Assembly: GCA_019775845.1 (NCBI GenBank)
Contig: JADQAV010000019.1
Span: 176,587 to 240,586, forward strand
Direction of reading: 5' to 3'
Length of the DNA stretch: 64,000 bases
Origin: Myrmaecium sp. VS I D KN 1
Lineage: Eukaryota; Ascomycota; Dothideomycetes; Valsariales; Valsariaceae
Positions 19,121-63,359 of the stretch are shown piece after piece (within the stretch, counting starts at the first letter, position 1; every line of letters begins with the position of its first letter). Under the pieces are notes generated by a model. That model was not told the DNA's origin, did not search any database, and saw nothing but the letters and a program-made list of their open reading frames with translations. Both the position numbers and the translations under genes were made by a program.

Positions 19121-19142
19121 CATCATCATCATCATCATCATC
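19121..19142. repeat. CAT trinucleotide tract
   Basis: Seven CAT units touching the stop codon of the minus-strand GTPase gene; on that strand it is an ATG run just downstream of the stop. Confidence 0.85.
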
Positions 19143-20366
19143 ACTCATCGCCACCACTACCATCACTCCCACCACCTCCAGCTCTCGCCTGTGCCTGCGC
19201 CTGCGCCTGCGCAATCGCAACCGCACTACCAAACCCCCCAACCCCACCGCCGCCACCACGAGCGACCATCTCCCGATCCAAGCTGTGGGCGAGGGCCTGC
19301 TGGACCGCGGGACGGGGGCGGGCGGCGAGGTCGAGCTCGGCGAAGCGGGGACGGGCGAGGCGGATGTTGACGCGAGCGGCGTTGAAGGCCTGCTCGGAAG
19401 GGGGGATGCAGGCGGCCAGGTTGGTGTTCTCCGTCAGCCGGACGATGAAGAACATGAACCGGCCGGTTTTGATCTGGAGCTCGGCGAAGTTGGCGGCGGT
19501 GGCGGGGATGCCGGTGTGCTTGCTTTATTTTTTCGTTTCCTAATGTTAGTGTTTTGTTTCGGTGGGATGGGGGAGGGGGGTGGAGGTGATGGGGAAGGGG
19601 AGAGGGAAGAGACGTACGCCATGCTTTGTTTGTGGGTTTTTAGGATGCTGCTGATTCGCTCGAATCGATCTGTGAATGGATTCTCCGCCTCGTACCCCCG
19701 GGTCACATGGGTTACCATGAGGCATGTCGTGCGCTCGTACAGGATGAGCTCGCGAGCGTCAATGACCTCGGCGAGACGGGTGAGGAGGGTCTCGATAGTG
19801 CCAGCGTTGGGGATGAGGAAGTAAATAATCTGGGTCCAAGCCTTGTAGAGACTCTGATCCCAGATCGAGGTCGGGAAGAAATCGACCGCGTCCCGAAACC
19901 CCTCGGACGCGTCCCGAACCATGGCGACGCGCTCCTCGAACAGCTCGGCCCGGAGCCGCGCGGCGACCAGGTCCATCTTGTGGATGAGGCAGAAGACCTT
20001 GGCGGCGGGGGAGCACTCCTGCAGGGCGCGGATGATGTTGGCGTAGGAGACGACGTCGGCGGCGAACTCGCGGGACTCGATGTCGAAGACGAAGATGAGG
20101 ACGGCGACGGCGCCGAAGACGTGCGCCCGCTGGTGCGTCAGGTAGTTCTCCACGAAGCCGTCCTGCCCGCCGCAGTCCCACAGGTTCAGCATCAGGTTGC
20201 CCATGAACTTGATGTTGCTGTGCTCCACGTCGATCGTCGCCCCCAGCCGCCGCACGTCCTTGGCGACGTAGTTGCTGAAGACGATGCTCCGCATCGAGGA
20301 CTTGCCCGCCCCGCTCTTGCCCATTAGCAGCACCTTGCGCTGCTTTTGGCGTTTCTGGTTGTTCAT
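19141..20366 (-). CDS. GTR1: Gtr1/RagA-type GTPase
   Basis: Predicted 376 residues: exon 1 19618-20366, intron 19523-19617 (95 nt, branch CTAAC), exon 2 19141-19522. The G domain has the P-loop GKSGAGKS at 16-23, the switch segment LWDCGGQDGFVENYL and HKMD in place of the usual NKxD, which is characteristic of the Rag family. The C-terminal half is the longin-like dimerisation domain, entered through the splice junction (KQSMAKHTGIPATAANF). Gtr1 pairs with Gtr2 on the vacuole within the EGO complex and signals amino-acid sufficiency to TORC1. The protein is longer than yeast Gtr1 (310 aa) because of a Gly/Ala/Gln-rich C-terminal tail. Acceptor choice (AAAG before CAAGCAC) was set by reading frame; nearby AGs break it. 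Confidence 0.93.
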
Positions 20367-20945
20367 CGTGGTATCGTCGGTGGAGGGAGGGGGGAGAGAG
20401 GGAGGAAGAGATATCGAAAGAGAACCTCCGAGAGGAGGGGAGGGCGAAAGGGAAGGTCTATCGACCGAATGGACAGGCGGACAGTAAGATCGAGCTGGCG
20501 GTAGGGCGGGCGAGAGCGCGGATGTGAATGTGAATGTGTGCGCAACGGCGTAGATTCGGAATGGATTGATTAGGTAATTGTCGTCGATATTGGACTGACC
20601 AAGCCAGTCGGTCGGTCGTTAGTCGCGGGGCGGTGACGATGGTGTTGCCAAGACAAAATCCCGGGCGGAGATCTCACTCCGAGGCCCAGGGACAGCCGCG
20701 GGACCCTCGCGGTGCTCCTACTTTCCCCAAGACAAAGCAGTTCGCAAGAATAGGCAAGACGAGGAAATGAAGCATGCTAGGCTTTCCATGAGATGCAATT
20801 CTCAAAGATCTACTTTTATTCGGTCCACAGTCCATCCTCATCTCCTTCGATGTCTTCTCGTACAGTCCAAACGTCCAACCAAGGTCCATACCTACATAGG
20901 AGTAGATAGCGTAGAGAATAGGAGAAAAGATCATGTATATCAGTC
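20367..20945. other. Intergenic, upstream of Gtr1-type gene
   Basis: Promoter side of the GTPase gene and 3' side of the PQ-loop transporter gene. Purine-rich leader next to the ATG at 20366; no open frame of note. Confidence 0.5.
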
Positions 20946-22131
20946 TCACCTCCTCTCCCCTCTCCTTCGTTCCTCCTCCGCCGCCTCCTCCGCCTCCTCC
21001 TCCTCCTCCCTCTCCTCCCTCACCCGATCATACACCCACCACTGCGCAAACACCCCCGCATCCAGCGCCAGCGTGCCCAAACTCCCCACAATCCAACTCG
21101 CATTGACCGCCACCCAGCGAGCGTAGATGCGGCCGGCCTCGCCGGGCGCGCAGCTGCGGGGCCCGCCCTCGCACAGCGCGCCCGGGTTGAACGCGAGGAC
21201 GCTGACAACGAAGGTGGCGTTGCCGGCGCAGGCGAAGAGGAAGAAGAGCATGCTGATCCCCTCGGTCGTGCGCCGGCGCCAGTTGAGCAGCAGCTGCGGC
21301 ACCCGGCTGCCCAGGTAGAGGACCGCGCAGAGGTACCCGCTCGCCTGCCCGAGCGGGGAGAAGTGCAGCCGCGGGTCCTGCAGGCCGAGTCCGTGGTGCG
21401 GGTGCGGGGGGTGCGAGGGGTCTTGCAGCGGGGGCGCGTTGGAGGCTGTTCGGTTCGAGAGGAACCAGCCTAGGATCCCGGCGGCGAAGACGAGGAAGAG
21501 CGCGGTGGTGTTGAGGAGGAAGGAGAGGAGGGGCGAACGTGGTCGCGATGTCGGCGCGGGTTTGGCGGGAGAGGGAGGAGGGAGGAGCGGGTTGGCGGGG
21601 GAGAGGTGGGTTGCCTCGACTGTGTGGTGAGTGTGGTGGGTGTGGTGGTGAGCATCGCCGTTTTGCAGGAGCGGGGCGCGTTCGGTGGGTGGCGTCGGCG
21701 ATGGGGAAGGAGAGGGAGACGTGATTTTGTCGGTGAAATGGAAGCCTTTGTAGTAGAAGCACTGCGCGAGAAGGACGATGTCGGCGAGGGTGTAGTAGAC
21801 GGCGAGGATGATCTGGTGGAGAACAAGAGGTCAGTGGACTGCACCGGAAAGAGAAAGAAAGAGTGCAGCTGCGTACCATCGTCGGCAGCACGCCCTGCAA
21901 CACAGCACCCAGAATGTTGAACACATCGCCAGCCAGCCAGATGATGATGAAGGTGACGGAGAGACCCTCAGCGGAGCCGCGTCGGAAGTTCTCGATGATC
22001 TGAGGGGAGAAGACGACGACCCAGCAGGCGATGGAGATGCTGCCACAGATGCCGGAAATGGCGTCGATATCGAGCTGGAGGCCTTGCAGCGGCGGAGCCA
22101 TGGCGAGTATGGCGTTGATGTTGGTAGTCAC
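20946..22131 (-). CDS. PQ-loop vacuolar amino-acid transporter (Ypq/Rtc2 type)
   Basis: Predicted 373 residues from 22131, or 363 from the in-frame ATG at 22101 (MAPPLQGL), which family similarity favours. Exon 1 21877-22131, intron 21813-21876 (64 nt), exon 2 20946-21812. Two PQ motifs occur, one in VVVFSPQIIENF and one in LGSRVPQLLLNWRRR, each in a transmembrane hairpin. WLAGDVFNILGAVLQGVLPT and YYTLADIVLLAQCFYYKGF are family blocks; seven membrane helices are expected. A long hydrophilic Pro/Ser/His-rich loop sits between the two halves and the C-terminus is highly acidic (EEREEEEEAEEAAEEE). Relatives (Ypq1-3, PQLC2) export cationic amino acids from the vacuole or lysosome. It lies next to the Gtr1-type gene on the same strand, a functional neighbour in vacuolar amino-acid homeostasis. 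Confidence 0.9.
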
Positions 22132-34192: not shown

Positions 34193-35476
34193 TTAAACAA
34201 ACCGCCGAGCTCCCGCAGCCCGTCCATGTGCAGTCGCAGGTCGAGCGACACCTTGCTCCATCATCGTCTCTCCACTGGAGTCGGTCTCCGAAAGCGTCTC
34301 AGGCGTAGGCATACGCACCGGTCTCAATCGTTCCCCGGCGAGGAACTCGTAAAAGTCCATCGACCCGGCGTCGCTTACCCGGGTCCCGGTCCGACTTAGT
34401 TCTATCGGCTGCGCGGATTCTTCGCGCTTCCGGGCGCCGCGCTTCTGATAGAGGTCCCGGATGTAGCAGTAGATGGCGGGCATGAGGCTCATTACGACGG
34501 CTGTTGTTATATCGGTCAGTGGGTTGCATATTAAAACATTTTTGGGAGAACTTCTTTTCTTACCATCGCCGGTTTCGCAGATTTGAAGAAAGGCCAGGAC
34601 GGCGATCCAGGCTTGGTCCGTCGTGCTCACGATGATGAACCGAGCGGTGCTTCCGAATAAGGAGGCTAGGCCGAGGAGGAAGACGAAGCTCGCGCTGAGC
34701 TTGTCGATTGTGGACATTTGTAGCTTCCAGATTACGACTACGGGCGGGACCATGACTGATGTTCTCGTTAGAGGGGGAACGACATGATACCGATGAACGA
34801 AAGACTTACTCAACAGGTCGGTTATGACCGTCAAAATGTACTCGCCATAGGCCTGCGCCTGGCTGACGAGAATATCAGCGGGCGTATGGCACCCCTTTCC
34901 TTGTACCAACTGGCCCGGATCCGCTCCGCACGCGAAGAGCTCCAGGATCCCGCCGTAAAACAGAGTCTGAAGGAAAAAACGTCAGCAAGACGGGTAAATG
35001 GAAGAAAGAGCAGGGGAAAAGAGAAGTCCACTCACAAATACCGAAAGCCCCAAGGCACACCCCCACAAAATGCGATGCCACCTTACATTCGCCCCGCGTA
35101 TCAAATCCGCATAATGCATCAAGAACGACACCCGCACGCACAGCATGACCACCCGCTGTGCGAACGAGCCCGCGACCATCGTCCGCGCGATCCACCGCGC
35201 GTCCCCCGCGATCCCGTCCCACGGCGCCGCCTGCCCGTGCGTGACGCGCGCGACGGCGAAGTTGGTCGCGTTCAGCGCGAGGTAGGCGCCCGTCATGCCC
35301 AGGAACGTCCAGCATCCGAGGCTGATGGCGATGTCGCGCACCGTCTGTCGCCGCTGCGGCGCGTGGTAGAGGGTGTAGGCCCAGAGGGTGAAGAGCAGGG
35401 GGATGAGGATGAGGTGGGTGGTGAGGGTTGCGAAGGCTTTGTGTTCGGTGATGCTGAGGGGGGGTGAGGGCGACAT
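34193..35476 (-). CDS. Fungal rhodopsin-like 7TM protein, paralogue A
   Basis: Predicted 365 residues in four exons: 35036-35476, 34810-34966, 34564-34755 and 34193-34500; introns 34967-35035, 34756-34809 and 34501-34563, in phases 0, 1 and 1. Several hydrophobic helices are clear (LILIPLLFTLWAYTLYH, LIMVPPVVVIW). The FACG-x12-C pattern between helices (LFACGADPGQLVQGKGC) and TDLLIMVPPVVVIWKLQM match the fungal integral-membrane family PF20684 (rhodopsin-like; related to PTH11-type receptors). The last exon starts with AVVMSLMPAIYCYIRDLY and runs into a 90-residue cytoplasmic tail rich in Ser, Glu and Arg. Ligand and signalling partners are unknown. It is the most distal of three tandem paralogues sharing gene structure. 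Confidence 0.82.
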
Positions 35477-36157
35477 GGTGTGTTGTTTGTCCGATCGTCG
35501 CTAGGTGAGAGGGTTTGGAATATGTGTGTACATGTTTGGAGATGGGAGGAGGGCGGAAATGCATTTTATATGTGTGCTGTGCTGGGAGGACAAACAAGTG
35601 AAGTGGTTTGGATGTGAAGGCGACGCGGACTCGAAATGTGAAGGTCGTTTTTGTGGCTGTTGTTGTGAAAGCAAACATCTTGGTGACTTGGAGTTGGATA
35701 TGTCACATTTTTTTAGGCTCTGGGGTCATTCACTTCACAGGTTTTTGAAGCAGTATTAGTAGTATTATGTAAGTACCTAGGTGACAGAAAAGCGGGCTCG
35801 GCCGATGACCACAGTCACTTAACAAGGCTCAGAGGAGCACACCTGCGTATTGACTCTTCCTCCATGCGTTCCGTCGTCGCCTTACAGGTGAAGCTGCATT
35901 GAAATGCTGAACAGGACCTCTTCGTCAGATGTCCTCCCTTGTAAAAATACCGAGTAAGTTATTGGAGGGTCTCCCTTTTCTTCCGATTCGGTGAGTAAAG
36001 TCACCTTTGTTATCGGAAGCAATATAGATGAATCCAAGAATTGCGTACCGGACCCAGAACCAGATTTAGAAGAAGGATGAAAGTCCGTCATCTTTTCTTC
36101 AACTTATGAGCAGCTAGGTGAAACCAAACTGACGAGTGAAAGGACACCCAAAGTGAC
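35477..36157. other. Intergenic between 7TM paralogues A and B
   Basis: Promoter of paralogue A and 3' region of paralogue B. No gene seen; no fragment of a fourth paralogue was recognised. Confidence 0.5.
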
Positions 36158-37364
36158 CTAATGAACCAAGGGCATCCTGCTCTCATAGCTAGTCCCAGTC
36201 TGAGCCCGATCACGGCGGAGCATCTCCTGCCACTCCACCGCGCCCTCTTCCTCACGGTCCCTCTGCCTGGACTCGAAAAACGGAGGCGGAGGCGGTTGGT
36301 GACGCTTGCGCCAGCTGTGGACAGTCCACATATAGATAGATGGTGCGAAGTTACAAAGAACAGCTGCGGTTTGCTTAGCATGCCACTATCGGGGTTGAAG
36401 GAGACAAAATGCAATTTGTTTCTACTTACCTAGGGTCACTTCGAGCACAGTGACAAAAGCAACCGTGATGAAGCCTGGCGTCCGGTCCCTCTCGGGCCAG
36501 AGGGTGGCGAGAACGAGCTTGGTCGTGGCTGCGCTGATGAAAATCAGGCCGAAGAAGAAGACAGCGCCGGATATAATCTTTTTCGCGGTGGTGGTTTGCA
36601 GCTTCGAGATCACGATGAGGGGTGGGATCATGACTGCGTCGTCAGAAACCGTTGGTGAGTCCAGGGATAGGAGTAGACGGAGAGGGAAGGTATGGCTGAA
36701 GGACGCAACTTACTGATTAGATATTCGAATACGTCGAATGAGTATTCTCCGTAGAAGAGCACGTCCCGGGCTGTGAGAGCGGCGGGCGTGGCGCACGCTG
36801 TCAGACTGGCGATGTTGGCGGGAGATCCACAGGAGAAGAGGCGGAGGAATCCAAAGCACACGGCGGCCTGTATAGAGCACGAATGTCGGGTCAGAGTGGC
36901 AGACGTGTATCGACAGAGCTGGGAGTCATACTCACCCCGATGAAAAACGCCATCGCATACTGAACATACCGGCGCCGGCTGGGAAACTGATGGATCATCT
37001 GGTAGTAGATCAATAAGTAGTTCAGCTTCAACGTCAGCATGATCGTCCGGCTCATGAAGCCAGTGAAGGTCAGCATCGTCGTGATCCGGGCCTCGTCCGC
37101 CTTGAGCTCCGGGTCCTGCGCAATCTCGCGGTCGGCAAGCTCGAAGACGCGCTCGAAGCAGGGGATCAGCGCGATCAGGTAGCATGCCCCGGCCATGAAG
37201 CACACGTAGCTCACCAACACCAGCATCGTTTGAATGAGGTTCTTGTTGGGCCCTTTGATCCGGGAGAGCGTCCAGATGATGCAGAGGAGGGAGTTGAGCA
37301 ACATGTGGCAGAGGGTGGAGAGGAAGAGCGACTTCGCGCTGAGAATGTTCAGCGTGTAGGCCAT
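36158..37364 (-). CDS. Fungal rhodopsin-like 7TM protein, paralogue B
   Basis: Predicted 330 residues in four exons: 36936-37364, 36714-36867, 36430-36633 and 36158-36363; introns 36868-36935, 36634-36713 and 36364-36429, again in phases 0, 1 and 1. Exon 2 carries LRLFSCGSPANIASLTAC, the same Cys-Gly-x-Cys-type loop as its neighbours. Exon 3 opens with MIPPLIVISKLQTTTAKK, matching MVPPVVVIWKLQ in paralogue A. Exon 4 opens with AVLCNFAPSIYMW and has a shorter, basic/acidic tail (about 55 residues). Seven helices are expected from hydrophobicity. Function is unknown; the family is annotated as rhodopsin-like or PTH11-related receptors. Protein identity to A and C looks low outside motifs, so the duplication is old or fast-evolving. 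Confidence 0.8.
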
Positions 37365-37911
37365 CTTGTGCAGTTCTGGCCGCTGCGGGTTATGGAAGAC
37401 GAGAGGATGGAAGGCGAAGGTTCTGGTGAACCAGAGGACGCGGTAAGATGCTTACCATTAGCTTCAAACACGTGGCAGGGTGGAAGGCATTGCAGCTGTT
37501 ATTGTGACAGGTTGCGGGCAAGCTATGGTCTCTTTCACAGGCCACTCGGTGAAGCGGTAAGCGGATGTGACATCGATGATTGCGTTCGAAGTCTTAGCCT
37601 ACTCGGGACACCCTTCAGAGAGGCTCACTAGCTGTTTTGAGCGATTAAGCCGACGAGGTTCGATGTGAATGCAATGTTTTCTGTCAGTGGCCCTTCGGTC
37701 TTACGCTGCCGTGTGGAAGTCTTGCATCCAGGCGTGCTCTGCCTTCCCTAACTTCGTGGCTTTTCCGAAAGGAACTGCCGTCCAAGCGGATTTCCGAGGA
37801 ATGACGATATACAATGAGTAGATGTACGCAGTACTCGAAAGGCGAAGGAGTGCAACAGTAGTGAGCAGGCTCAGTAATCAGAGGCGGTAATACGAGAGCT
37901 CCCAACAACAT

Positions 37912-38049
37912 GAGTGCTTCGAACCCAAAGAGTCAGCATTGTTGTCCGCCGAATCTGGATGAGTCAATTGGTTGCACATTCTATGTATTAAGAACAGCTT
38001 GCCATCTTGAGCAGAGCAGAGCGCACGGCTAGACAACCGCCTCCTGCTA
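37912..38049. repeat. Direct repeat, copy 1 (about 138 bp)
   Basis: Same orientation and about the same length as 38136-38273. It begins GAGTGCTTCGAA and ends CCGCCTCCTGCTA; shared internal words include GATGTAT/CTATGTAT, CTTGCCAT and AGAGCAGAG. I judge identity at about 70% with small indels. Not coding in any frame that I can support. Confidence 0.7.
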
Positions 38050-38135
38050 TAGATCCCATAAGAGTGCAATAGGTGAGTGATCAGATAGATAGAGTCAGAG
38101 AGGGAAGAGCACCTCGAGAGCTGTAGATCCGACAC

Positions 38136-38273
38136 GAATGCTTGGAATGCAAGGAATCCGCATCGTTCTTCACCGAACCTGGCTACAATTCAATGGGTTG
38201 CCCGTTCGATGTATGAAAAAATAACTTGCCATTATGATCAGAGCAGAGAACAGGCTATAGCCGCCTCCTGCTA
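38136..38273. repeat. Direct repeat, copy 2 (about 138 bp)
   Basis: Diverged copy of 37912-38049, offset by 224 bp. It begins GAATGCTTGGAA and ends CCGCCTCCTGCTA. It sits about 115 bp beyond the stop codon of paralogue C, on that gene's 3' side. Confidence 0.7.
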
Positions 38274-38389
38274 ATGACTTCAACCAACGAGATATAGCAT
38301 AACCACCACACCTCTCTCACAAAACCACCACAGACCCTCCCATCCAATATAACTCCCACCTCATCCCGGCGCAACACGTTCCCAGAGAT

Positions 38390-39699
38390 TCAAACAAGCC
38401 GACAAGAAGACGGCGCGCCGCCACTCAAGCTCTGCGCACTACCGCCACTGCAGCACCTCCCCTGTTCCTCCAACATTATCGCGTCCACATATCCACATCT
38501 CGACGACGCAGAGCTAGCAGGGAGCAGCGTCGACTTCCGGCCATCCTCATCCTTCCATCTCCGCGCCTCATACGTGCGAATCGCCCACGCCCATAGGGCT
38601 GGGCAGCAGCATATGAGAACAGCTGGCGGTGGAGGTAGGCAAGTAAGTAAGTAAACACGCATACTTCGTCAATCAGGGGGAGGGGGGGGAAGAGGAAGGA
38701 CTCACCAGCACCGCTCTCAGCAACGGAGAGCAGCATCAGAATGGTCAGGTTGGGCACCATGCGGTCGGCGTAGTCGCGTGTGATGAGCACCATCCGGGCG
38801 GTTGGACCGGCGAGACAGAGGATGCCGAAGCCGAAGAGCGTGCCGAAGCCGCATTTGTCTCGCGCGGACATTTGGCGGCGGAGGATCACCCAGAGGGGGA
38901 GGGCCATTACTGTTTTGTGCGTGTTAGTGGTGTGGGGGGCTTTTTGAGGGGGGCTTGAGGGGGGCTGTATAGGGAACGGGGGATATGAGGGTGTTGGCTG
39001 CTTACCAAGTAGATCGGATATGACATTGAGACCGTACTCGGTGTAGAGCAGCATGGATTCTGTCCCCACGACATCGTCTGGCAAGCACTTGCCGGGTGTG
39101 ACGGCGGCGGAGACGTTCAGGCCGCAGGCGAAGAGGCTTAGGATCTGGCATATGATGGGGGTCTGGATGCTCTCTTCTTGTCAGGCGTTTCGACAGCAAG
39201 GAAAGGAAAGAAGGCGAAGAATGGAAGAGGAGAGCAGGCTTACGCAAACAACGAAGACGAGAATCCAGCGCCACGCAAGCATGTAATGCCACACGCGATC
39301 AACGATCTGCCTGCACATCAGCAGAAACGTGATCCGCACCGTCACAAGGAGGAAGCGCAGCACCGCGAACGCGGACAGCAGCCCGATCGAGACGAGCTGC
39401 GAGTCCTCCAGCAGGCCCGCGTAGGGTGGGATCTGCATCATCAGCACTGCCATCGTGCGGTACGATCGCGGAGCCAGGACGATGTAGAGCACGTCGATCC
39501 CGACGAAGAGTAGGTAGGCGACCACGATCAGGATGTCCTGCAGGGTGTGTTTCTTGAGAGAGTTTAGGCGCGCGGCGGCCCAGGCGGCCATGGTAAGAGT
39601 CACGACGACGAGGAAGGCGTAGCATGCGCGGAGCAAGGTTGGCTTGGTGATGAAGGCCCTCACCGCGAAGGGCTGGTCATCATCGGGGCTGAACGACAT
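38390..39699 (-). CDS. Fungal rhodopsin-like 7TM protein, paralogue C
   Basis: Predicted 349 residues in four exons: 39244-39699, 39006-39162, 38706-38909 and 38390-38622; introns 39163-39243, 38910-39005 and 38623-38705, phases 0, 1 and 1 as in A and B. Exon 2 is 157 nt, as in A, and holds LSLFACGLNVSAAVTPGKC, close to the family pattern F-x-C-x(n)-G-x-C. Exon 3 starts at MALPLWVILRRQMSARDK and is 204 nt, as in B. Exon 4 starts AVLICCCPALWAWAIRTYE and ends in a Ser/Gly/Cys-rich tail. Membrane helices are evident in exon 1 (LVVVTLTMAAWAAARL, ILIVVAYLLFVGIDVLYIVL). Same function uncertainty as its paralogues. Confidence 0.8.
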
Positions 39700-53138: not shown

Positions 53139-56100
53139 CTAGGTTATACTCGGATCTTCTACCCTCTCCGACTTCGGTGCTGTCACCTGCCCCTCCCTTA
53201 AAATTATACATGCGTCTGCTGCATGCATAACCATAGGGCGATGTGTGACATGTACTACCGTTCCGCCGCGCATGAAGCGGCGTATACCTGAAAGCACCTG
53301 GGCCTCGGTGCGCACATCCAGCGCGCTGGTCGCCTCGTCCAGAAGCAGGAGTTGTGGTCGACGTGCAAGTGCGCGCGCGATGGCGAGGCGCTGGCGCTGG
53401 CCCCCGGAGAGCTGGGTGGTACGGCCGGAGGTAAGATAGGTGCGGAAGCCCGCTGGGAGGGAGACGATGAAGTCGAAGATCGCGGCGGCCCGGCAGGCTT
53501 CTTCTATGAGCTGCTGCTTGTCGCTCTTGTCGTCGGTGTCGAGGCCGAGGAGGATATTCTCGGCGATGGTGCTCGGGTACAGAACGGGTTCCTGGCTGAC
53601 GTAGCCGATGGATTGGCGGTAACGGGCTAACTCGTTGTGATTGCGGAGGAAGGTCGATAGGTGGATTCCGTTCACGAGGATGTGGCCACTGGTCGGGCTG
53701 AAGAAGCCTTCCAAGAGGGCGATGATGGAGCTCTTGCCGCTGCCGGATGGCCCGATAAGCGCGGTATGCTGACCCGACTGGATGCTGGACGAGACGTTGC
53801 GGAGGACTGGGATATGCGGGGCCGACGGGTAGCTGAAGCTGACGTCTTGAAAGTGGATGGCAGGTACTGGTGAAGCCCAGCCAGGTAAAGCTAGTGAAGG
53901 CGGGAATGCTGACGTCTTGAAGACGCTCGGCCAAGCCTGAGGTTTCTGCCCTTGGACGACCTCGTAGATGGCGCTGATGGCCGAAAGGGCAGCGGAAGAG
54001 TCGGACGCGTAGAGGAAGGACTCGCCAGCTTCTTGTGCGCCGAACGTGACGGCGATAAAACAGGCGAAGAAGTCGTACGCATCGATGTAGTCCTTTCGCA
54101 TCAGCATAGCTCCGTACCAGATCACAAAGGCGTTGACCAAGAATGTCACACACTCGGAGAACGCAAAGAAGGTAGCAGTGCTGAGTACAGAGCGTGATAC
54201 TTTGGAAGATATATCAGTCAGAGCTTCATGGTAGGTCTGCAGGACATAGCATTCCATGCTGAATGACCGTACCGTTCGGATGGCGGAAAGGGCTTCGTTG
54301 GCGATGGCAACGGGCACAAGCCTCTCCTTTTGCATCCTCACTTCGAAATTGCCCAGGACTTTGGTGCGCGTGTAACCAGACCCAAGGAGGGCGGGGATGG
54401 CGACCGCTACAACGGCAAGAAGCCGCCAGTCCAGCACACTGGATAGGATCGTTGCACAGAGCAGGTTTGTCACCACTGATAGGTATACGCCCAGAGCATT
54501 ACCTGAGATACCCTCTACACGTCCAGGGTCGTCAAAAGCCCTGTCTACCAACCTGTTCGCCGATTGGTTCATCCCCTCCAGCCAGGCGATGTCCTTCCTC
54601 AGGATGGAGAGGAAAGTGGTGCGGCGAAGCTTCTCAATGGACTGCTGGGCGCTGAGTCCAAGGAGGACCGAGGATCCGAGCTTAGCTACGAATGCGCCCA
54701 GCGCGATATCAAGAAAAAGCAGACAGTAGTGGTGGACGGAGGTGGTAAAGCCCGGGATGGAGGGGGTAGCGAAAAGGATGATGAGATTGGCAAAGACGAG
54801 CGACATACAGAGGAAGACGGTGCCGCTTGCGATGGATGCGAAGAGGCCGATGAAGAGCGAGAAGAGATCCTCTGTACAGTAGGAGGAGAACCAGGCTGCG
54901 ACAGTAAATGGTCGAGGTTTTGGAAGAGGAGAAATGGTGCTCTGGAACGACGATCGGTCCACCAGTGTGGAAGAAAGCTTTTCAGATATATCAATCGACG
55001 ATCCTGGCCCACTTGCTTTCTGGAGACCGTGACTGTCGTAACCTGACTCAGCAAGGCTCTCCGCCTGTGTCTGGACAAGGGCGTAGTATTCGCCCTCTAT
55101 GCGCATCAACTCCTCATGCGTCCCCTTCTCGATCACTTTCCCGCCATCAATCACAGCAATCACGTCTGCATCACGGATCGTGTTCAGCCGATGCGCCACC
55201 ATGACCACCGTTCTCCCCTCCGACGCGCTGTTCAGAGCGGCTTGCACCTCCTTCTCCGAGGCTGCATCGAGGCTCGCTGTCGCTTCGTCCAGGAGCAGAA
55301 AACGTGGATTGCGTACCAACGCCCGGGCAATCGCCAGTCGCTGTTCCTGTCCACCGCTGAGCCGCACGCCGCGATCGCCAAGCTGTGTGTCGAGGCCGCA
55401 GGGAAGGCTTGCGATGACATCTGCCAGATTCGCCAGCTGGCACGCTGCGAGGACTCGCTCGCGCTTGGCTGGAAGACTTTCTCTCTCCATGGGTGTCCCA
55501 AGAAGGCCGTACGCCACGTTATCGAAGACCGTTGCAGAGAATAGCTGCGGCTCCTGCGCGACCAGAGCCGTCTGCGAGCGGAGGGCGTCCATATCCCACC
55601 GAAACAGCGGTATACCGTCGATGAGGATTGCTCCCGAGTTGGCTTCGTAGAAGCGCGAGGTTAATGAGATGATTGAACTCTTCCCTGATCCGGTCGCACC
55701 AACGAGAGCGGTGGTAGCTCTGGCCGGGATCTCCAGGTCAAGGCCATCCAGGACTATCACGTCCGGTCGTGAAGGATATGAGAATCGGATGTTGCGAAGC
55801 TGAATGCTTCCATGGAGGCTCGCCAAACCCTTTTCCGCCTGTGGATCCTGTGAGACACTGCTAACTGCCGGCGGGTGATCGGACTGCTCGAACGTTTGAC
55901 ATGAGGTGCGGACGTTGTTAATCTCCGTAAACACCTCCTGCGCCGCTACTTTCGCCGCTTTGAAGACGTGAAGATGCATCGCCCCTTGCCCCAACGCAAA
56001 CGCGGCCAGAATGACGGCGAACAGGATGTTGACCACAGCCCCTGTGCTTACCCGACCGGAAGCCAGGGCTTTATGGCCTTCCCAAAAGGCGAGCGCATAC

Positions 56101-57036
56101 GCGGAGAAAAGGATGACAGGGATGAGCGCTCTGATCATGCCAACCCAGAACGTTTTATATCGCGTGGGTAGGCTCAAGGCGGCCAGCTTACGGTCGTAAA
56201 GCTGGCCAAGGCCCTTGATGGAACCAAGGCTTTGGGCAACCCGGGGAGCAGCCAACACATCCGTCACAAACCCCTTTGCCTCCGCCTCTGCATCCATAAC
56301 AGCCTTGGCATGCCGCCCGATGGCGGTGGAGGTGAGGCCGGTGAAGACCACCATCGCGGGTATGACACTGCTGACGACCAGGGCGACCCGCCAATCGCGG
56401 ATAAACGCCACGATCATGGCAGTCACGAAGGTGGACAGCGACGAGAGCACGATCCCGACCTTTTCTGAGATGCCTTCTTGGATGATCTTCATGCTTGCAG
56501 AGAGCCGTGCCTCGATGGCGCTGGTGGAGGTGGTGTCGAAGAAACTGATCTCACGGGAGAGTGTCGATCGCAGGTAGGCTACTCGGATCCGTCTCGTCGT
56601 GTTCTCGCCGGAGATGATCCAGCAGTAGGTGGAGATGTATGTAGTGATGAAGATGCCGATGGCGATGTAGATAAAGTAAAGTGCTCGCTGGTTAATGTGG
56701 TGCTGGAAATCAGACCCGGCTTCGCCATGCGACGCATTGGTGAAGACCGTCGTTAGAGAACCGAGGACTACTGTCATGAGAGGCTGTTTCGAAGGTCAGC
56801 GAGAGGATCCATGATGAGCTGGGCATGGGGGCTCTGCTCACCAGCGCTGTTCCAGAGACTATACACGCCAGCAGGCCGCATATCTGTAGCAATCGATCTC
56901 TTGGGGAGGAATAGCTGAAGATCGCAAAGTAGGAGATGCTTGGCTTTTTCTTTTGCTCCACCACATGGCCTGCAATGGTCGACTCTAGATCCCTTCCCTT
57001 TCTTTGTAACCGGATGATATCTCGAAGTCTTTGCAT
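53139..57036 (-). CDS. Full-size ABCB multidrug-type ABC transporter
   Basis: Predicted 1279 residues: exon 1 56842-57036, intron 56784-56841 (58 nt), exon 2 53139-56783. Layout is TMD1-NBD1-TMD2-NBD2. The splice joins CIVSGTAL to PLMTVVLGSLTTVF, the usual first helix of this family. NBD1 has Walker A GATGSGKSS, Q-loop VAQEPQLFSATVFDN, signature LSGGQEQRLAIARAL, Walker B FLLLDEATASLD and H-loop VAHRL. NBD2 has GPSGSGKSS, GYVSQEPVLYPSTIAEN, LSGGQRQRLAIARAL, LLLLDEATSALD and THRP. Both sites look catalytically complete. Relatives (leptomycin/pheromone exporters, Mdr1) move lipophilic compounds or lipopeptides out of the cell. It is divergent from the four-domain enzyme gene across 1.56 kb, as expected for a metabolite exporter beside its biosynthetic gene. 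Confidence 0.94.
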
Positions 57037-58598
57037 CTTGACATGTATCTGCGAGCTTTCAGTCCTGGCACCAGAAACTCAGAGACTCCATCAATGCTAA
57101 GTGACGTTGGTCACGCACGTTCAGACGATGTGCGCTGCTGAAGTCTCGGGAGAACCTCCATTCTGGGGCTTCACAAATGAACGACCTCTGAGATGAGGGG
57201 ATGGTATACTCATCGTTTGGAACTGACTTGGGGCTCCCACTAACAGCGACTCCAACGCCTATTTGGCCCCCATGCCAGATATGTATAGCACAGTTACAGT
57301 TACACCGCTGGTCGGCTGTGCCCCAACTTCTGCCTTCATTGAAATCTCATTATTGACGCTCTCTGGAGCACTCTGACTGCTCTGAAATATAACAACTGTG
57401 CTACTACAGAGCATGTGCTGAGTGGCATGCTCTAGACACCCTGCTGTCTGCCGATGTCACACGTGTTAGTCTCTGGGGAATTCCTGGGTCTATAGTGCAG
57501 AGACATCCAATTTAGCAGCCTTATTCCTGACAAACACGAGCCCGGCGCGTCGTCTGGCAATATGATGACCTGGTACGGTAAGGCGGAGCCACTGGGAGGC
57601 GGTACTGGCGTCCTGTGCCACCGCCTTGCCCCCGATACCCTTCCAGCCCTACAGCCTTTCAACGGCGAGAGACCAACAGCATCCGTAAAGAGGGTAGCGC
57701 AGGACAACGGCTTACGTGTGCGCGGGAGCCCAGAATCCTTCCGTTGAAGGAATTTTACCCCGAAATCTACAGTACTGACACTCTGGTTGCAAGCCTTCTC
57801 GTCCCTAACGGCAATCCTCTGAACAAACCTGGCCGATGTTCTCGATAATCCTCCTCGTGAAATTGAATCAACAACCAAACTTGGTAAATAAAGACAATGG
57901 GAGGCATACCCAGCCCCTGGTGGCTACGTCCCGCCAAACCTCTGTGTAACGTACGGGCTTGTTCTATTTGTAGATAAGTGAGGTGTCGCGTCGCACCACA
58001 GCGGCTCAGAAAAGAAAACCAAACAGAAAAAAAGGAATCCCAACCACTGCCACAAGATCTGACGGTGCCACAGATACTCCTGCGATCTGACTGTACCCGT
58101 AAATCATCTGGGGGCTCAGAAGCTTCACCTGAGCCTCCGCGAACAGATTTGCGCGAAGCGGAAGATCACGATAAATGATGAGTTGCGCTGGGATGGACGA
58201 CCGCCCCCGAAAGGCTGACCTGATGTTGGGCGTTGGATCAGAATGATCTCCAACCTGCCGCATCCATGTCACCTGCACGGCTGAGCAGACTCGTTATGGC
58301 GTTGAAATTTCCGAGCTTATGTCAAGTTATGGTTCTTGCGGTATGTTGCTATCTTGGGGTAGCAGTCGGATGCAGAGATGGAGAGGAGTTGGCAGATTGT
58401 GCGATGGGAAGGACATCGCACGGGAAGGAGGACATGCCATCTACCTCCCCTTAAGGAAGAGACAACTATATAAGTCCAGACATCTTCACGTTCGAAAAGA
58501 GACAACAAAGAACGAAATCTTGAAGACAGCCTGCTTATAATCACCCCTCCAGATCGACTTACTTTTCTACTCCCTCACTCTCAAACCTACTCCAAACA
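57037..58598. promoter_or_regulatory. Divergent promoter region, ABC transporter / four-domain enzyme
   Basis: Between two genes facing away from each other, so it must contain both promoters. A TATA box for the enzyme gene is at 58467-58474. Open frames inside (up to 148 codons, 57432-57878 on the - strand) have no domain I recognise. No further gene is supported. Confidence 0.6.
58467..58474 (+). promoter_or_regulatory. TATA box of four-domain enzyme gene
   Basis: TATATAAG, 132 bp upstream of the ATG at 58599, followed by a pyrimidine-rich leader and a CAAACA-ATG start context. TATA boxes are more typical of regulated than of housekeeping fungal genes. Confidence 0.6.
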
Positions 58599-61500
58599 AT
58601 GCCTCTCCTATTCAACAAGCCAACAAAGACCATGGGACCATCCCCCATCGATCTCCACTCAGCCTCCGCTCAAGCAGATGCCTCCCTCCCCACCTACTCC
58701 CTCCCTTCTCTGGACCCCCTTCTCAACGACATCACCCGTATCACGCAGACCCTCCTCGACTCCAAAACACACTCTCACTTCACCACCAGCCTCGCTACGC
58801 TCAACCCCACGCTCCAGCCCGCCTTCAACGCCCTCACCCAGCATCTCTCCACCTCCACCAATCCCAACACCAACAACTGGGCAACCACATCCTTCAAAAC
58901 CCTCCTCCTCTCCCTTCGCACACCACCCGCCGAAACCAGCCTAACCTTCACCCTCCCCAACCCAGGAGGAGGACGCCGGCTTAGCCAAGCCACCACCACC
59001 GCCGCGCTGCTCCGCGCCATCGCCGAGCTCTACACCGCGCCCGCCACCCTCGACATCATCCGCAGCGACGGCTCCGCAAAGCGCTTCGAGACCCGCCAGC
59101 TCGCCGAGCTCTTCGCGACCACGCGACGGCCGGGGACGGAACAGGATGCGCTGGTGACGTTCCCGCGGGCAAGGCATGTCGTGTTGTGGAGGCGGGGAAG
59201 GGCGTTTTGCCTTGATGTTCTAGACGCTACGATGCGTCCTGTCGATGCTGGAGTCCTGGCGGGGCAAGTGCAAGGCGTTCTTGATGCTGCGGAGACGGAG
59301 CCGGGTGCGCTGAGCGTGGCGGGCATGTCGACGATGCTGGATCGGACGCGGTGGGCGGAGGAGTATGCGCGTCTGCGGGAGCACAGCCCGGAGGCGGTGG
59401 AGAGGATGGAGTCGAGTTTGGTGTCGGTGGCGCTGCATGAGGAGGTGGTTGGGGATGATGTGCAGGAGCGACTGCGGGTGATTCGGGCGGATGGGCGGGA
59501 TGTGTATTCGGACGCGACGATGGGGTTTTCGGTGTTTGCGGATGGGGCGGTGGGGGGCCGGGTGGATCATGCGGTGGCGGATGGGGGCGTGATTGTGCGG
59601 CTGCTGGGGATGGTGCAGGGCGCGATGGTGAGGTTGTTGGAGGAGGGTGGTGTTGGGGCTGTGATGGACGCCCACTACGCTGCTGTGGTGGAGGAGGTGG
59701 ATTTTAGATCCTTCAGGGGTATGTCGGTGCAAGCTCCTTCTCCCTCTGAGAGTCTGGCGAAGGAGCGGAGGACGATGGATATTCCCCAACCACCGGATGT
59801 GCTCGACCTCCTCCGATCGAGCAGGCTGTTGAACGTCACCACACAGCTGGCGTTCCAAGCAGCTCTCTTCTCCATCGGAGAGAGCGGCGGCCTCGTCGTG
59901 GAGCCAGTATCGGTCCGGTCGTTCAAGGACGGACGGTGTGATCCCAACTACGTCGTCACACCAGAATCGCTCGCGCTGCTCAAGGCGGCAGCCGCGGGCG
60001 AGCCGGAAGGGAAGCTTCTGCAAGCCTTTCTCGCAAGCGTGGACACGTACAACCAGCACGTACGTCGGATCCGGGACGGCGCCGCAGTCGGACCGGGCAT
60101 CATGCTGCTGCGCTCCGCGCTGGAGACGCTGCCGGAGTCCGAGGCGCGGAGCACGGCGCTGGGGGTGCTGACGCGGTTCCAGAGGCCGGCGGCCTACTTC
60201 ACCGGCGCCGTCGCGGTGGACCACGTCGAGGCGGTCGAGGCCAACGTCTTCGCGCCGGACCAGGTTGCGCTGACGTATATGGGGAAGCAGGACCGGCTCA
60301 CGGTCTGCGTCACGGGTACCGGTCGGTTTGTACGCAAGACGGACCTGCTCCTGCGGCGCTTTGGTGAGAACCTTCAGCGGCTTGGTGCGCTGGCGACGGC
60401 AGTGGCGGGCGTGGAGCAGATGTACCCGACGAGGGGACTGGAGGTCCTCGCCGGATTCGCGGTGAGCATGGCTAAAGAAGCGTCTGGAGAGGAGAAGAAT
60501 GTCGGTACGGTGGCTATTCACGCCGGAGCGGGCGAAGAATTCGGTCTTGAACGGCATGAAACGAAGCTGGTGGAGTTCCTCTTGGAGGTGGTGACCCGGG
60601 AGGCGCAGGCGCAGCTGGCGGCGGGCAGTCCGGCCGTCACGGTCGCGGAGGAGGCGGTGGCGGCGCTGGAGAACTGCGTCTTCTTCAACGCGGGTAAGGG
60701 GGCCGTCTATACTGCCGCCGGCGACCACGAGCTCGAGGCCTGCATCGTCGACGGCGCCACGGGGGCGGCGGGCGCGGTGGCCTGCTGTCGGGCCGTCCGC
60801 AATCCGATCCGGGCGGCGCGCGCGGTGATGGCGGCGACCCCGCACTCGCTCCTCGCCGGCCCCGCCGCCGACGACTTTGCCGCCTCCGTCGCTCTTCCGC
60901 TCGTCCCTAATCGTCACTTCGACTCGCACGCCCGCCGCCTGCAGTACTGCCGCTCCGCTCTCTCTTCCGCTGATATTTCCGCTCACTCTTCCGCTCACTC
61001 CTCCGTCCAGCATCCCCAGCATCCCCAGACCGTCGGCGCCGTCGTGCTCGACCGCTGCGGCCGTCTGGCCGTCGCCACCTCCACCGGCGGCGTTGTTAAC
61101 AAGCTTCCCGGTCGCGTCGGCGACACCGCCATTGTCGGCGCGGGCTGCTTCGCCGACTCCCGCATCGCCGTGGCCTGCTCCGGCCAAGGTGACGCCTTCC
61201 TCCGCGAGTCCATCGCCAGCCGCATCGCCCTCGGTGCGCACGACGACATGCAGTCCATCCTGGAGACGCTGCAGCAGAAGACTGGAGCCGCGGGCGCCGT
61301 CCTGACTGTTGACGCTGCCGGCAAGGTCCGCCTCGCGCAGACTTCCGGCTCTTTCTTTGTCGCTGCCAGCGAGCCCGGGCAGCGCGTCTGGTCCAAGGTG
61401 ATCGTCAAAGACCGCGTGCCCACGGACGCCACGCCCTTCTTCACCGATGAAAACGTGGATGCCTTTGTGTCCTCACGACCGACCACCTCTGGCGACACGG

Positions 61501-63359
61501 TTGTGCGGGTCAAGGCGGGATCCCTGACCAAACTTTCAAAGCACCAGTTCGCTCAGGTGCTGCTCTCCATTAAGCAAGTCGCCATCATCGTCAAGGCTGC
61601 GACGGAGACGCAGAGGGTGGCCTTGGTCGCCACCGCCAACGACCAAGTCTTCCTGATCCCTCTCCATGGTGTCTCAGCCGAATGGAAGCCTGCTCTTGAC
61701 GCAGACGAGGAGTACCATACTTCCTACCCTAGCTACATTTCCTCTAAGAATGGTCCTAAGTCTGACAATGACACTCTTACTAAGATCCAAGCCCAGATTA
61801 CAGGCGGTCAAGCCCCTGCAATGGACAGCACCTGCCTTGCCGAGGGTGACGTCCGCGACAACCTCTTCGCTAAGATCATCCGCGGTGAGCTCGAGCAGTG
61901 GCGCGTCTGGGAGAGCCGGTCACATGTCGCCTTCCTCACGCCGTTTGGGAACACGCCGGGCTACACGGTGCTGGTGCCTCGCAAGCACCTCGACAGCGAC
62001 ATCCTAGCCCTCGACGACTGCGACCTGTACGACCTCGCGAGCGCCATCTGGGATGCCAGCAAGCTCATCGAGCAATCCACCCTGGGCGCCTCCCGGGTGG
62101 GACTGATCTTCGAGGGCATGGAGATCAACTGGGCGCATGCCAAGCTGATCCCCATCCTCGGCAGCGGTGACGGAGTTCCGCCAATGGAAGCTGCCTTCAG
62201 CGATCAATACGGAGGATCCGTGTCGTCCAAACCCGGACCGATGGCCGACCCCGCGGACCTGGAGGAGCTGCGCATCAAGCTCACCTCCGCCTCTAATACC
62301 CTGCGTACAATCGTGCCGACCAAGACGTGGCGCGAGCCGAGCACACACTACCTGCAAGCGCTCAAATCACCATGGTACCGGGGCATCTTTCAAATCCTCA
62401 ACACCCTCTTCCACGCCACGACGGACTACTTCCACAACGAGCTCGGATACAAGTACGCCCTCACACCGCTCACAACCGACTGCATCTCCTCCCCCATGGG
62501 TCTCGGATCCGACAGCCAGCCGGTGCAAATCGACCTCTTCGGGCAACCGACCTACCTCGCCGACAGCATGCAATTCACACTCGAATACCTGCTCCGCTTT
62601 GACGCCAACACAACGACGCCCGGGCTATACTACATCTCGCCCTCCTTCCGCGGCGAGGACCACGACGCCACCCACCTCAACCAATTCTTCCACGTCGAAT
62701 GCGAGCTGCACGGCACCATGGACGACGCCATCCGCACCGCCGAAGCATACATTATCGCACTCACCCGCGCCATGCTCGCCCAGCATGGGCCACTCATCCA
62801 ACGCATCGCCGGCAGTACCGCGCACCTCACCACCCTCCTCTCCACCTACCAGCCAGCCACCGGCTTCCCCCGCATCCCCCTCGACACCGCCATCGCCTCC
62901 CTCCCCTCCCCCTCCAGCTGGGAGTACGTCGTCCCCGGTTCCCCGGGCCACGGACGCAAACTCACCCGCCACGGCGAACAAGCGCTGCTCGCCCAACACG
63001 GCGGGACCCCCATCTGGCTGACGGAGATGGACCACCTCTCAGTGCCCTTCTACCAAGCATACGTCCCTGGAACGGAAGGGGCGAAGGCGAAGGCAGCCGA
63101 CCTGCTGCTCGGCCTCGGCGAGACGCTGGGGATGGGCGAGCGCCATGGGACACCCGCGGAGGCGGCGGCCGCGCTGGCGCAGCATGGGGTGCCGCGGGAA
63201 AGGTATGAGTGGTATTTGGGCATTCGCGAGGCGCAGGCGTTGCGCACGAGTGGGTGGGGCATGGGGTCGGAGCGGTTTTTGTGTTGGTTGTTGGGGCAGG
63301 GGGATGTGAGGGATTTGGCGCTGGTGCCGAGGTTGAAGGGGGAGCGGTTTTTGCCGTGA
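58599..63359 (+). CDS. Four-domain fusion: carnitine acyltransferase, Ntn asparaginase, HIT, AsnRS-like core
   Basis: Intronless, 1586 residues. (1) About 30-610: carnitine/choline acyltransferase; catalytic H324 in RVDHAVADGG, LAFQAALFSIGE, SVRSFKDGRCDPNY and a late strand LTVCVTGTG. (2) About 635-1030: type-2 asparaginase/isoaspartyl peptidase; TVAIHAGAG, FFNAGKGAVYT, VRNPIRAARAVM, then QTVGAVVLD with predicted autocleavage nucleophile T811, ATSTGG and GRVGDTAIVGAG. (3) About 1078-1195: HIT domain; VLVPRKH and INWAHAKLIPI, where only the middle His (H1180) of the usual triad remains. (4) About 1230-1586: class II synthetase core of AsnRS type; YLADSMQFTLEY, motif 2 SFRGEDHDATHL (R1351, E1353) and motif 3 GWGMGSER (R1559); no anticodon-binding domain. 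I infer adenylation of Asp/Asn-like acids joined to acyl transfer and Ntn amidase chemistry in a small-molecule pathway; the product is unknown. The gene is divergent from an ABC exporter and close to the telomere. Confidence 0.88.
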   Translation: MPLLFNKPTKTMGPSPIDLHSASAQADASLPTYSLPSLDPLLNDITRITQTLLDSKTHSHFTTSLATLNPTLQPAFNALTQHLSTSTNPNTNNWATTSFKTLLLSLRTPPAETSLTFTLPNPGGGRRLSQATTTAALLRAIAELYTAPATLDIIRSDGSAKRFETRQLAELFATTRRPGTEQDALVTFPRARHVVLWRRGRAFCLDVLDATMRPVDAGVLAGQVQGVLDAAETEPGALSVAGMSTMLDRTRWAEEYARLREHSPEAVERMESSLVSVALHEEVVGDDVQERLRVIRADGRDVYSDATMGFSVFADGAVGGRVDHAVADGGVIVRLLGMVQGAMVRLLEEGGVGAVMDAHYAAVVEEVDFRSFRGMSVQAPSPSESLAKERRTMDIPQPPDVLDLLRSSRLLNVTTQLAFQAALFSIGESGGLVVEPVSVRSFKDGRCDPNYVVTPESLALLKAAAAGEPEGKLLQAFLASVDTYNQHVRRIRDGAAVGPGIMLLRSALETLPESEARSTALGVLTRFQRPAAYFTGAVAVDHVEAVEANVFAPDQVALTYMGKQDRLTVCVTGTGRFVRKTDLLLRRFGENLQRLGALATAVAGVEQMYPTRGLEVLAGFAVSMAKEASGEEKNVGTVAIHAGAGEEFGLERHETKLVEFLLEVVTREAQAQLAAGSPAVTVAEEAVAALENCVFFNAGKGAVYTAAGDHELEACIVDGATGAAGAVACCRAVRNPIRAARAVMAATPHSLLAGPAADDFAASVALPLVPNRHFDSHARRLQYCRSALSSADISAHSSAHSSVQHPQHPQTVGAVVLDRCGRLAVATSTGGVVNKLPGRVGDTAIVGAGCFADSRIAVACSGQGDAFLRESIASRIALGAHDDMQSILETLQQKTGAAGAVLTVDAAGKVRLAQTSGSFFVAASEPGQRVWSKVIVKDRVPTDATPFFTDENVDAFVSSRPTTSGDTVVRVKAGSLTKLSKHQFAQVLLSIKQVAIIVKAATETQRVALVATANDQVFLIPLHGVSAEWKPALDADEEYHTSYPSYISSKNGPKSDNDTLTKIQAQITGGQAPAMDSTCLAEGDVRDNLFAKIIRGELEQWRVWESRSHVAFLTPFGNTPGYTVLVPRKHLDSDILALDDCDLYDLASAIWDASKLIEQSTLGASRVGLIFEGMEINWAHAKLIPILGSGDGVPPMEAAFSDQYGGSVSSKPGPMADPADLEELRIKLTSASNTLRTIVPTKTWREPSTHYLQALKSPWYRGIFQILNTLFHATTDYFHNELGYKYALTPLTTDCISSPMGLGSDSQPVQIDLFGQPTYLADSMQFTLEYLLRFDANTTTPGLYYISPSFRGEDHDATHLNQFFHVECELHGTMDDAIRTAEAYIIALTRAMLAQHGPLIQRIAGSTAHLTTLLSTYQPATGFPRIPLDTAIASLPSPSSWEYVVPGSPGHGRKLTRHGEQALLAQHGGTPIWLTEMDHLSVPFYQAYVPGTEGAKAKAADLLLGLGETLGMGERHGTPAEAAAALAQHGVPRERYEWYLGIREAQALRTSGWGMGSERFLCWLLGQGDVRDLALVPRLKGERFLP

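Follow-up and report, generated by a model that had tools for sequence, protein, structure and literature searches.

The stretch of DNA analysed here (the window, 64,000 nucleotides in all) belongs to the ascomycete Myrmaecium sp. VS I D KN 1 (contig JADQAV010000019.1, positions 176,587 to 240,586 of the forward strand) and harbors, near its right end, a single open reading frame (ORF) in which five domains, most of them with the residues of known enzymes, are joined in one fusion gene. The ORF starts with an ATG, the leader ending in ccaaacaATG, and is stop-free throughout its 1586 codons. Its organization is the following:

58599..63359, forward strand: fusion gene, open frame of 1586 amino acids, with the order carnitine/choline-type acyltransferase (cAT), asparaginase, HIT1 (degenerate), HIT2 (MccH-like), AsnRS-like
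58701..60473, forward strand: carnitine/choline-type acyltransferase domain, residues 35-625; Pfam PF00755
60507..61373, forward strand: Ntn-type asparaginase/isoaspartyl peptidase domain, residues 637-925; Pfam PF01112
61374..61826, forward strand: HIT1, a degenerate HIT-like domain (residues 926-1076) that lacks the triad His residues
61851..62234, forward strand: MccH-like HIT domain HIT2, residues 1085-1212; phmmer match to 3lb5, 5e-7
62340..63356, forward strand: AsnRS-like class II catalytic core of the AgnA kind, residues 1248-1586; no anticodon domain

When the bases of the fusion ORF were shuffled 200 times, the longest open run obtained was of 449 codons, versus the 1586 of the gene. 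The GC content at third codon positions ranges from 0.69 to 0.83 in the five domains and is 0.75 and 0.86 in the linkers formed by residues 1077-1084 and 1213-1247, respectively; it is lower (0.65) in residues 1-34, and amounts to 0.45 in the linker 626-636, whose 11 codons are too few to carry weight. Judging from the open frame, the gene would be without introns. That separate genes were merged by an assembly or annotation artefact is extremely improbable: there is a single promoter-like region, and the unbroken frame, with third positions that are coding-like through the long linker, together with the recurrence of the fusion in an unrelated genome (see below), speaks against such a merger.

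The acyltransferase domain is matched by the Pfam model Carn_acyltransf (PF00755) in two stretches, the best one at residues 35-342 (3.4e-40; 138.6 bits versus a gathering score of 22.3), and its catalytic motif HxxxDG is intact (H324, encoded at 59,568-59,570, and D328-G329). Against PDB sequences, it matched CPT2 (4eyw) with an E-value of 7.4e-11, and a two-sequence profile of the domain matched choline acetyltransferase (1t1u) with 1.3e-26. With regard to carnitine or choline binding, the region corresponding to GRTE/GRVD reads GRCDP (GRTDP in the bacterial counterpart described below), and the C-terminal part of the domain is weakly aligned. The asparaginase domain, found with the Asparaginase_2 model (PF01112, 2.8e-68 at residues 637-925) and aligned with the E. 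coli enzyme 2zak (2.4e-50), keeps the Thr nucleophile T811 (61,029-61,031), the STGG motif (T829-G830-G831), R839, and D842, with S861 at the position of a Thr in 2zak. At the presumed site of self-cleavage, the residue before T811 is a Gln, and the beta-subunit chains in the PDB start at the aligned Thr.

The two following domains are HIT-like. HIT1 resembles a Salmonella HIT protein (28% over 143 amino acids, E 6e-7 in a 94-locus search) and would show the strand-strand-helix-strand-strand order in a structure model that is of middling confidence in this part. HIT2 was detected by phmmer against PDB sequences, while the Pfam HIT model gave no report on the fusion protein at E<=1 and one NCBIfam HinT model matched HIT2 far under its cut-off (21 of 130 bits). 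Among plasmid records, HIT2 is closest to HIT proteins from Proteus, Pseudoalteromonas, and Salmonella (35-37% identity). Like HIT2, these have a Lys in place of the third His and a Glu six positions ahead of the first residue of the triad. The residues E1172, W1178, H1180, and K1182 of HIT2 are encoded at 62,112-62,144, and Y1122 stands where HinT has a His. According to the available part of PMC7157772, the MccH clade is marked by the motif ExxxxxHxHxK and its phosphoramidases split the P-N bond of an aspartamide-adenylate; in MccH itself, H101 and K103 are essential and a Phe takes the place of a HinT His outside the triad. HIT2 keeps the Glu, the second His, and the Lys of this motif, with W1178 at the first His; since the motif is incomplete, HIT2 has not been filed in the MccH clade, even though it may work like MccH. 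Because the active site is built from two monomers in the MccH model (same part of PMC7157772), HIT1 and HIT2 may form an internal pseudo-dimer. As a control, HIT genes from 15 bacterial genomes were inspected: 37 HIT places were found, 30 were taken as loci, 26 were matched by the profile, and 25 motifs were read. The third triad position, occupied by Lys in HIT2, is a His in 24 of them, one of which (L107) was perhaps mis-read, and a Gln in the remaining one (L131), whose motif is identical to that of the HIT gene at the locus L043 mentioned below; the Lys-bearing HIT of the locus L016 was among the 37 places and outside the 30.

The C-terminal domain is matched by the Pfam model tRNA-synt_2 (residues 1250-1579, 2.7e-24) and its class II motifs 2 and 3 are intact (R1351, encoded at 62,649-62,651, and R1559, encoded at 63,273-63,275). 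The anticodon-binding domain is absent, the core alone being matched and HIT2 preceding it. The best NCBIfam matches of the core are models of asparagine synthetase A (AS-A; PRK06462 models, 2e-47), with 162 bits versus a cut-off of 322, and the asnS model gave 104 bits versus a cut-off of 342.6, both falling below the threshold. The domain was also used as a tblastn query against plasmid sequences, where 30 records were matched; the first 22 are AsnRS-like genes sharing 34-48% identity with the query, and the remaining ones share 23-28%. Among the 22 there is agnA, the 'Agrocin84-synthetase' of pAgK84 (35% identity over 94% of the query), which is described in the available part of PMC4392301 as a shortened AsnRS that lacks the anticodon domain and was turned into a biosynthetic enzyme of agrocin 84. 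The cores of the loci L015 (Candidatus Parabeggiatoa), L002 (Streptomyces), and L016 also match AS-A best, below cut-off, like the fungal domain.

When 95 rows were placed in a tree by a quick maximum-likelihood method, the fungal domain paired with L015 (support 100) inside a group of 18 rows supported at 98, and five canonical rows were separate at 99 (98 including L009 of Bradyrhizobium); these five pass the NCBIfam cut-offs, one as AsnRS and four as Asp-tRNA(Asn) ligases. The agnA row (L008) is a long branch, whose exact placement is unsure. Judging from these sequence comparisons, the AsnRS-like core belongs with AgnA of agrocin 84, which is a nucleotide antibiotic, and apart from canonical AsnRS and AspRS. 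An AlphaFold2 model of residues 928-1586 (pLDDT 74.6, pTM 0.66) is good in the AsnRS-like part and poorer in the HIT parts; when it was searched with Foldseek, the 50 matches listed were all AsnRS, AspRS, or AS-A, and the HIT folds had no independent structural match there. An ordinary tRNA synthetase embedded in a fusion is ruled out by the absence of the anticodon domain and by the separation of the core from canonical AsnRS/AspRS.

These results agree in large part with the initial annotation, made from the DNA letters alone, which had described one uninterrupted frame with four catalytic folds; the frame and the Pfam, phmmer, and PDB matches bear this out, and H324, T811, H1180, R1351, and R1559 were all found where it had placed them, most catalytic residues being intact. 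It had also recognized an AsnRS paralogue without anticodon domain. All four of its domains are there, and a fifth, the degenerate HIT1 at residues 926-1076, had been missed; H1180 is indeed present in the HIT strand, which however reads W-A-H-A-K and not H-x-H-x-H. The Pfam search that it had proposed found PF00755, PF01112, and tRNA-synt_2, but not the HIT.

The proposal to look for other proteins with the same order of domains led to one case. The contig QNER01000461.1 of the giant sulfur bacterium Candidatus Parabeggiatoa (6460 bases; locus L015), from a genome whose label points to Guaymas, contains one open frame of 1499 residues, whose start is lost at the contig end and whose five domains are in an order identical to that of the fungal fusion. 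Over their whole length, the two proteins are 40% identical; by domain, the identity amounts to 54% for the AsnRS-like core, 45% for the asparaginase, 43% for HIT2, and 27% for the cAT. The 341 bases located directly downstream of the bacterial gene match 95 places in the bin, seven on the same contig and 88 on other contigs; therefore, the contig belongs to the Parabeggiatoa genome, and the presence of foreign DNA in the bin is disfavoured. The GC content of the gene is 0.54 and that of its flank is 0.41, which is consistent with a transferred gene, and among 42 genomes of the order only this bin has the fusion protein. The natural reading is a horizontal transfer of the fusion gene. The statement that the four folds are not normally linked has to be tempered for three cases: L015, with its identical order, the locus L092 (an Ignavibacteriae contig without S66 peptidase), where only 12 bases separate the AsnRS-like gene from an asparaginase gene that follows it, and a Herpetosiphonaceae contig, where an MccH-type HIT gene is located about 6.6 kb from the AsnRS-like gene.

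The gene company of the AsnRS-like kin was analysed in 89 loci, 9 from plasmids and 80 from genomes, the latter being the best 80 of 187 candidates disclosed by a scan of bacteria and archaea (the HIT loci L010-L014 were left out). A six-frame search with a profile built from the kin loci found S66 peptidases (MccF family) in 74/89 of them, in 68/80 genome loci, and in 52/62 loci of at least 20 kb. The background, estimated with Pfam PF02016 in 30 kin genomes totalling 217.4 Mb, was 69 places, i.e., about 0.007 per 21 kb, a value that is raised by the way of sampling, the 30 genomes having been drawn from the 80 kin genomes with their own AsnRS-like loci included. At 1e-10, agn-type methyltransferases are present in 44/89 loci, and additional aminoacyl-tRNA synthetases (aaRS) of the Ala, Leu, or His/Gly/Thr/Pro type in 22/89. 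AgnA is accompanied by a methyltransferase, an MccF-like protein, and a LeuRS at the agrocin 84 locus; a LeuRS is found also at the Xenorhabdus locus, and an AlaRS lies alongside the AsnRS-like gene in Peribacillus and Exiguobacterium. A Streptomyces locus contains a molybdopterin-binding (xanthine-dehydrogenase-like) gene, a methyltransferase, an LD-carboxypeptidase, and a His/Gly/Thr/Pro-type ligase, a gene set that is reminiscent of phosmidosine. An asparaginase occurs in 3/89 loci, that is, in L015 (fused), in L092, and in the L020 cluster. No relative was found in three scans of viral contigs.

Some of these clusters deserve mention on their own. L002 (positions 5555-21632) and L084, both from Streptomyces, encode two condensation-like proteins, a xanthine-dehydrogenase-like protein, a His/Gly/Thr/Pro-type ligase, a methyltransferase, and an S66 peptidase, and are candidates for phosmidosine. 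In L020 (9989-19217; bin labelled Legionella), the AsnRS-like gene is clustered with ThiF/MoeB-like, cysteine desulfurase-like, asparaginase, and LuxD/LuxC/LuxE-like genes, all of which but the asparaginase were named by eye. Near-alike clusters of AsnRS-like, ThiF-like, S66, and MetRS-like genes (ThiF and MetRS by eye) are harbored by Vibrio ostreicida (L078) and Photobacterium galatheae (L087). The AsnRS-like protein of Pantoea (L001, 11773-13053; 427 residues), annotated as a GNAT acetyltransferase, has about 75 extra residues before the match, recalling MccE, and its locus has no S66. Lastly, two gammaproteobacterial loci (L043, 9980-13022, and L086, 7621-10256) combine an AsnRS-like gene, an exonuclease-like gene (by eye), and a HIT gene of the HxHxQ form, without S66.

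The surroundings of the fungal gene comprise the following features:

58466..58474, forward strand: TATA-like box CTATATAAG, 133 bases 5' of the fusion start codon
63971..64000, no strand: telomere-type repeat (TTAGGG)n, five perfect 6-base copies at the right end of the window
53139..56777, reverse strand: ABC transporter with 2 membrane and 2 ATPase stretches (Pfam PF00664, 1.5e-80, and PF00005, 2.1e-62, two stretches each)

No other gene lies between the fusion and the telomere, and the window ends at the chromosome end. The ABC transporter gene is divergent to it, and its position makes it a possible exporter tied to the fusion. Other genes of the window encode a Zn2Cys6/Fungal_trans regulator, SF3a60, and MTHFR (the latter split over two frames), which, with the rhodopsin matches given next, fit a filamentous fungus. 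Moreover, three separate fragments with weak matches (below the gathering score) to the fungal rhodopsin domain, perhaps neighbouring paralogues, lie on the reverse strand at 34196-39180.

On the whole, the fusion gene might encode a protein that by itself makes a nucleotide phosphoramidate (P-N) conjugate, an antibiotic-like metabolite, a reading that we consider possible, with chances a little short of even. It builds on what can be read from the sequences, namely the domains and their residues, the kinship with AgnA, most of the MccH motif, and the bacterial counterpart. The P-N scheme is proposed because the AgnA pathway yields a P-N nucleotide, TM84/agrocin 84 carrying a 5' N-acyl phosphoramidate bond according to the available part of PMC5059758, and because the hydrolytic domains have precedents in microcin C. 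With Asn and ATP bound, the AgnA-type core would link the alpha-phosphate to the side-chain amide nitrogen of Asn, so that pyrophosphate leaves and beta-aspartyl-NH-AMP is formed. The Ntn asparaginase/isoaspartyl peptidase would then split the beta-aspartyl amide into Asp and adenosine 5'-phosphoramidate (AMP-NH2); a precedent for this step is given by MccF and MccG, which convert isoasparaginyl-AMP into Asp and a nucleotide phosphoramide (PMC9239234, available part). The cAT would put an acyl group from CoA or from a carrier on the phosphoramidate nitrogen, leading to acyl-NH-AMP, which would mimic an acyl-adenylate and be stable. HIT2, forming a pseudo-dimer with the dead HIT1, would cleave any aminoacyl phosphoramidate that escapes, acting in proofreading or self-protection, and export of the product may fall to the ABC transporter encoded nearby. 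We infer in this way the substrates, the order of the steps, the product, and the use of the enzyme. The initial annotation had suggested a self-contained line that activates Asp or Asn and acylates the conjugate. Such a line is plausible, but P-N chemistry is favoured over a plain acyl-aspartyl or acyl-asparaginyl amide since the core groups with AgnA-type genes and HIT2 is MccH-like.

Three other explanations have to be weighed. The core might be an asparagine synthetase A or an Asp/Asn activator, with the asparaginase trimming beta-aspartyl amides, the cAT giving acyl-Asp or acyl-Asn, and the HIT clearing stray aminoacyl-adenylates. The best NCBIfam matches of the core (2e-47, 162 bits versus 322) speak for this possibility, as do its fold, which in the model matches archaeal AS-A with AMP (3rex), and the AS-A annotation carried by many bacterial kin. 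However, this label cannot separate the two readings because AgnA itself has AS-A as its best NCBIfam match, below cut-off; considering also that the kin are accompanied by S66, methyltransferase, and spare aaRS genes and that HIT2 resembles the P-N-cleaving MccH type, an acyl-amino-acid line appears unlikely. Alternatively, the fusion might serve in defence, as a detoxifier with several tools against aminoacyl-nucleotide toxins, in which the cAT acylates the amine (as MccE), the asparaginase cuts the amide (as MccF and MccG), HIT2 cuts the P-N bond (as MccH), and the core binds the toxin. Each of the three chemistries of microcin C immunity has a matching domain, MccH cutting the P-N bond and MccE acetylating the amine in the available parts of PMC9239234 and PMC7157772, and HIT and S66 tend, weakly, to mutual exclusion. 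Furthermore, phosmidosine, a P-N nucleotide antibiotic of Streptomyces, is antifungal (PMC6429109, available part), so that fungi encounter such toxins and a pure detoxifier is therefore reasonable. It is nevertheless rather unlikely, given that the kin of the core sit in biosynthesis-like clusters, that agnA is described as biosynthetic (PMC4392301, available part), and that motifs 2 and 3 are intact, which would be needless in a mere binder.

HIT2 might also have a biosynthetic role instead of one in immunity, moving AMP to a new nitrogen through a His-AMP intermediate. Nucleotide transferases are included in the HIT superfamily (PMC7157772, available part), and the enzymatic formation of AMP-NH2 from adenylyl sulfate and ammonia is known (PMC6429109, available part); on the other hand, the tested enzymes of the MccH clade are hydrolases in the available part of PMC7157772, and this possibility seems very unlikely.

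Besides the AS-A label of the kin and of AgnA, several observations weigh against the reading of the fusion as a maker of a P-N conjugate. The formation of the P-N bond by an AgnA-type core is deduced from the pathways alone, no assay of AgnA being found in a full-text literature search that covered mostly open-access texts, and joining a HIT that cleaves P-N bonds to a core that forms them seems partly futile. At the first triad position, HIT2 has Trp in the fungus and Tyr in L015 instead of His, and the MccH clade comprises many standalone genes, two of its members being inactive on microcin C (PMC7157772, available part). With the bacterial queries tried, no S66, methyltransferase, or aaRS copy was found in the window. 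Among the 89 kin loci, the cAT is present in L015 alone and HIT in four, only two of which (L015 and L016) have the Lys form. All four HIT loci are among the 15 without S66 (p 5.6e-4, 89 loci, kinship uncorrected); however, L015 and L016 are short contigs, whose ends may have lost an S66 gene. Among the 71 loci of at least 15 kb, HIT is found in 2/12 of those without S66 versus 0/59 of those with it (p 0.027, the two HIT loci being kin), and when the length is raised to 20 kb or more, which leaves 62 loci, the values are 1/10 versus 0/52 (p 0.16, kinship uncorrected). For asparaginase, the association with a missing S66 falls short of significance (p 0.07 over the 89 loci, 0.31 in those of at least 15 kb), and L020 has both. 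A rule by which HIT or asparaginase replaces S66 thus proves only suggestive after the removal of short contigs.

In the literature search, no description of the five-domain architecture was found, be it of the fungus or of Parabeggiatoa, and no other eukaryotic maker of N-acyl nucleotide phosphoramidates; with mostly open-access texts covered, this is not a proof of absence. The origin of the P-N bond of agrocin 84 and phosmidosine is left unexplained in the available parts of the papers cited here (PMC4392301, PMC5059758, PMC6429109). The fusion suggests a logic for it, consisting of an AgnA-type core, a hydrolase removing Asp (perhaps S66 in most bacteria and the asparaginase in the fusion), and an enzyme placing the acyl group; since the whole logic would be held by one expressible and assayable protein, the role of many bacterial AgnA-like genes would become testable. 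If this is true, aminoacyl- or acyl-nucleotide chemistry enters fungal secondary metabolism. In its fullest form, the proposal is that a single polypeptide represents the whole pathway, i.e., takes the nitrogen from Asn onto the AMP phosphate, removes Asp, N-acylates the product from acyl-CoA, and polices its own toxic intermediate, thus being a eukaryotic maker of N-acyl nucleotide phosphoramidates, and that it moved from a fungus to a giant sulfur bacterium or the other way round, or was acquired by both from a third party; taken as a whole, this appears somewhat unlikely.

The comparison with known systems discloses likenesses and differences for each part of the protein. Like AgnA, which belongs to the agrocin 84 cluster, the fungal core is a class II core without anticodon domain and with motifs 2 and 3; unlike it, the core is not standalone in an operon with a methyltransferase, an MccF-like protein, and an immune LeuRS, but forms the C-terminal fifth of a fusion. 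The cAT shares the HxxxDG motif and a two-part match with choline and carnitine acyltransferases (1t1u, 4eyw), from which it is remote in sequence, 1e-26 being its best PDB E-value, obtained with the two-sequence profile. The asparaginase domain has the nucleophile, the STGG motif, and the Arg and Asp of the E. coli isoaspartyl peptidase/L-asparaginase (2zak), but has a Ser for one active-site Thr and sits inside a fusion. The activity proposed for it, a carboxamide cleavage of aminoacyl nucleotides, is that of MccG and MccF, which belong to the S51 and S66 peptidase families and not to the Ntn hydrolases (PMC9239234, available part). With MccH (PMC7157772, available part), HIT2 has in common the Glu that precedes the first triad position by six residues, the central His, the Lys for the third His, and an aromatic residue for H39 of HinT; it differs in the Trp replacing the first triad His, in being in tandem with a dead HIT and fused, and in its activity, which is putative. 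Finally, the Parabeggiatoa fusion has the five domains in one order, as in the fungal gene, but it is bacterial, its N-terminus is cut by the contig end, and the first triad position of its HIT2 is a Tyr.

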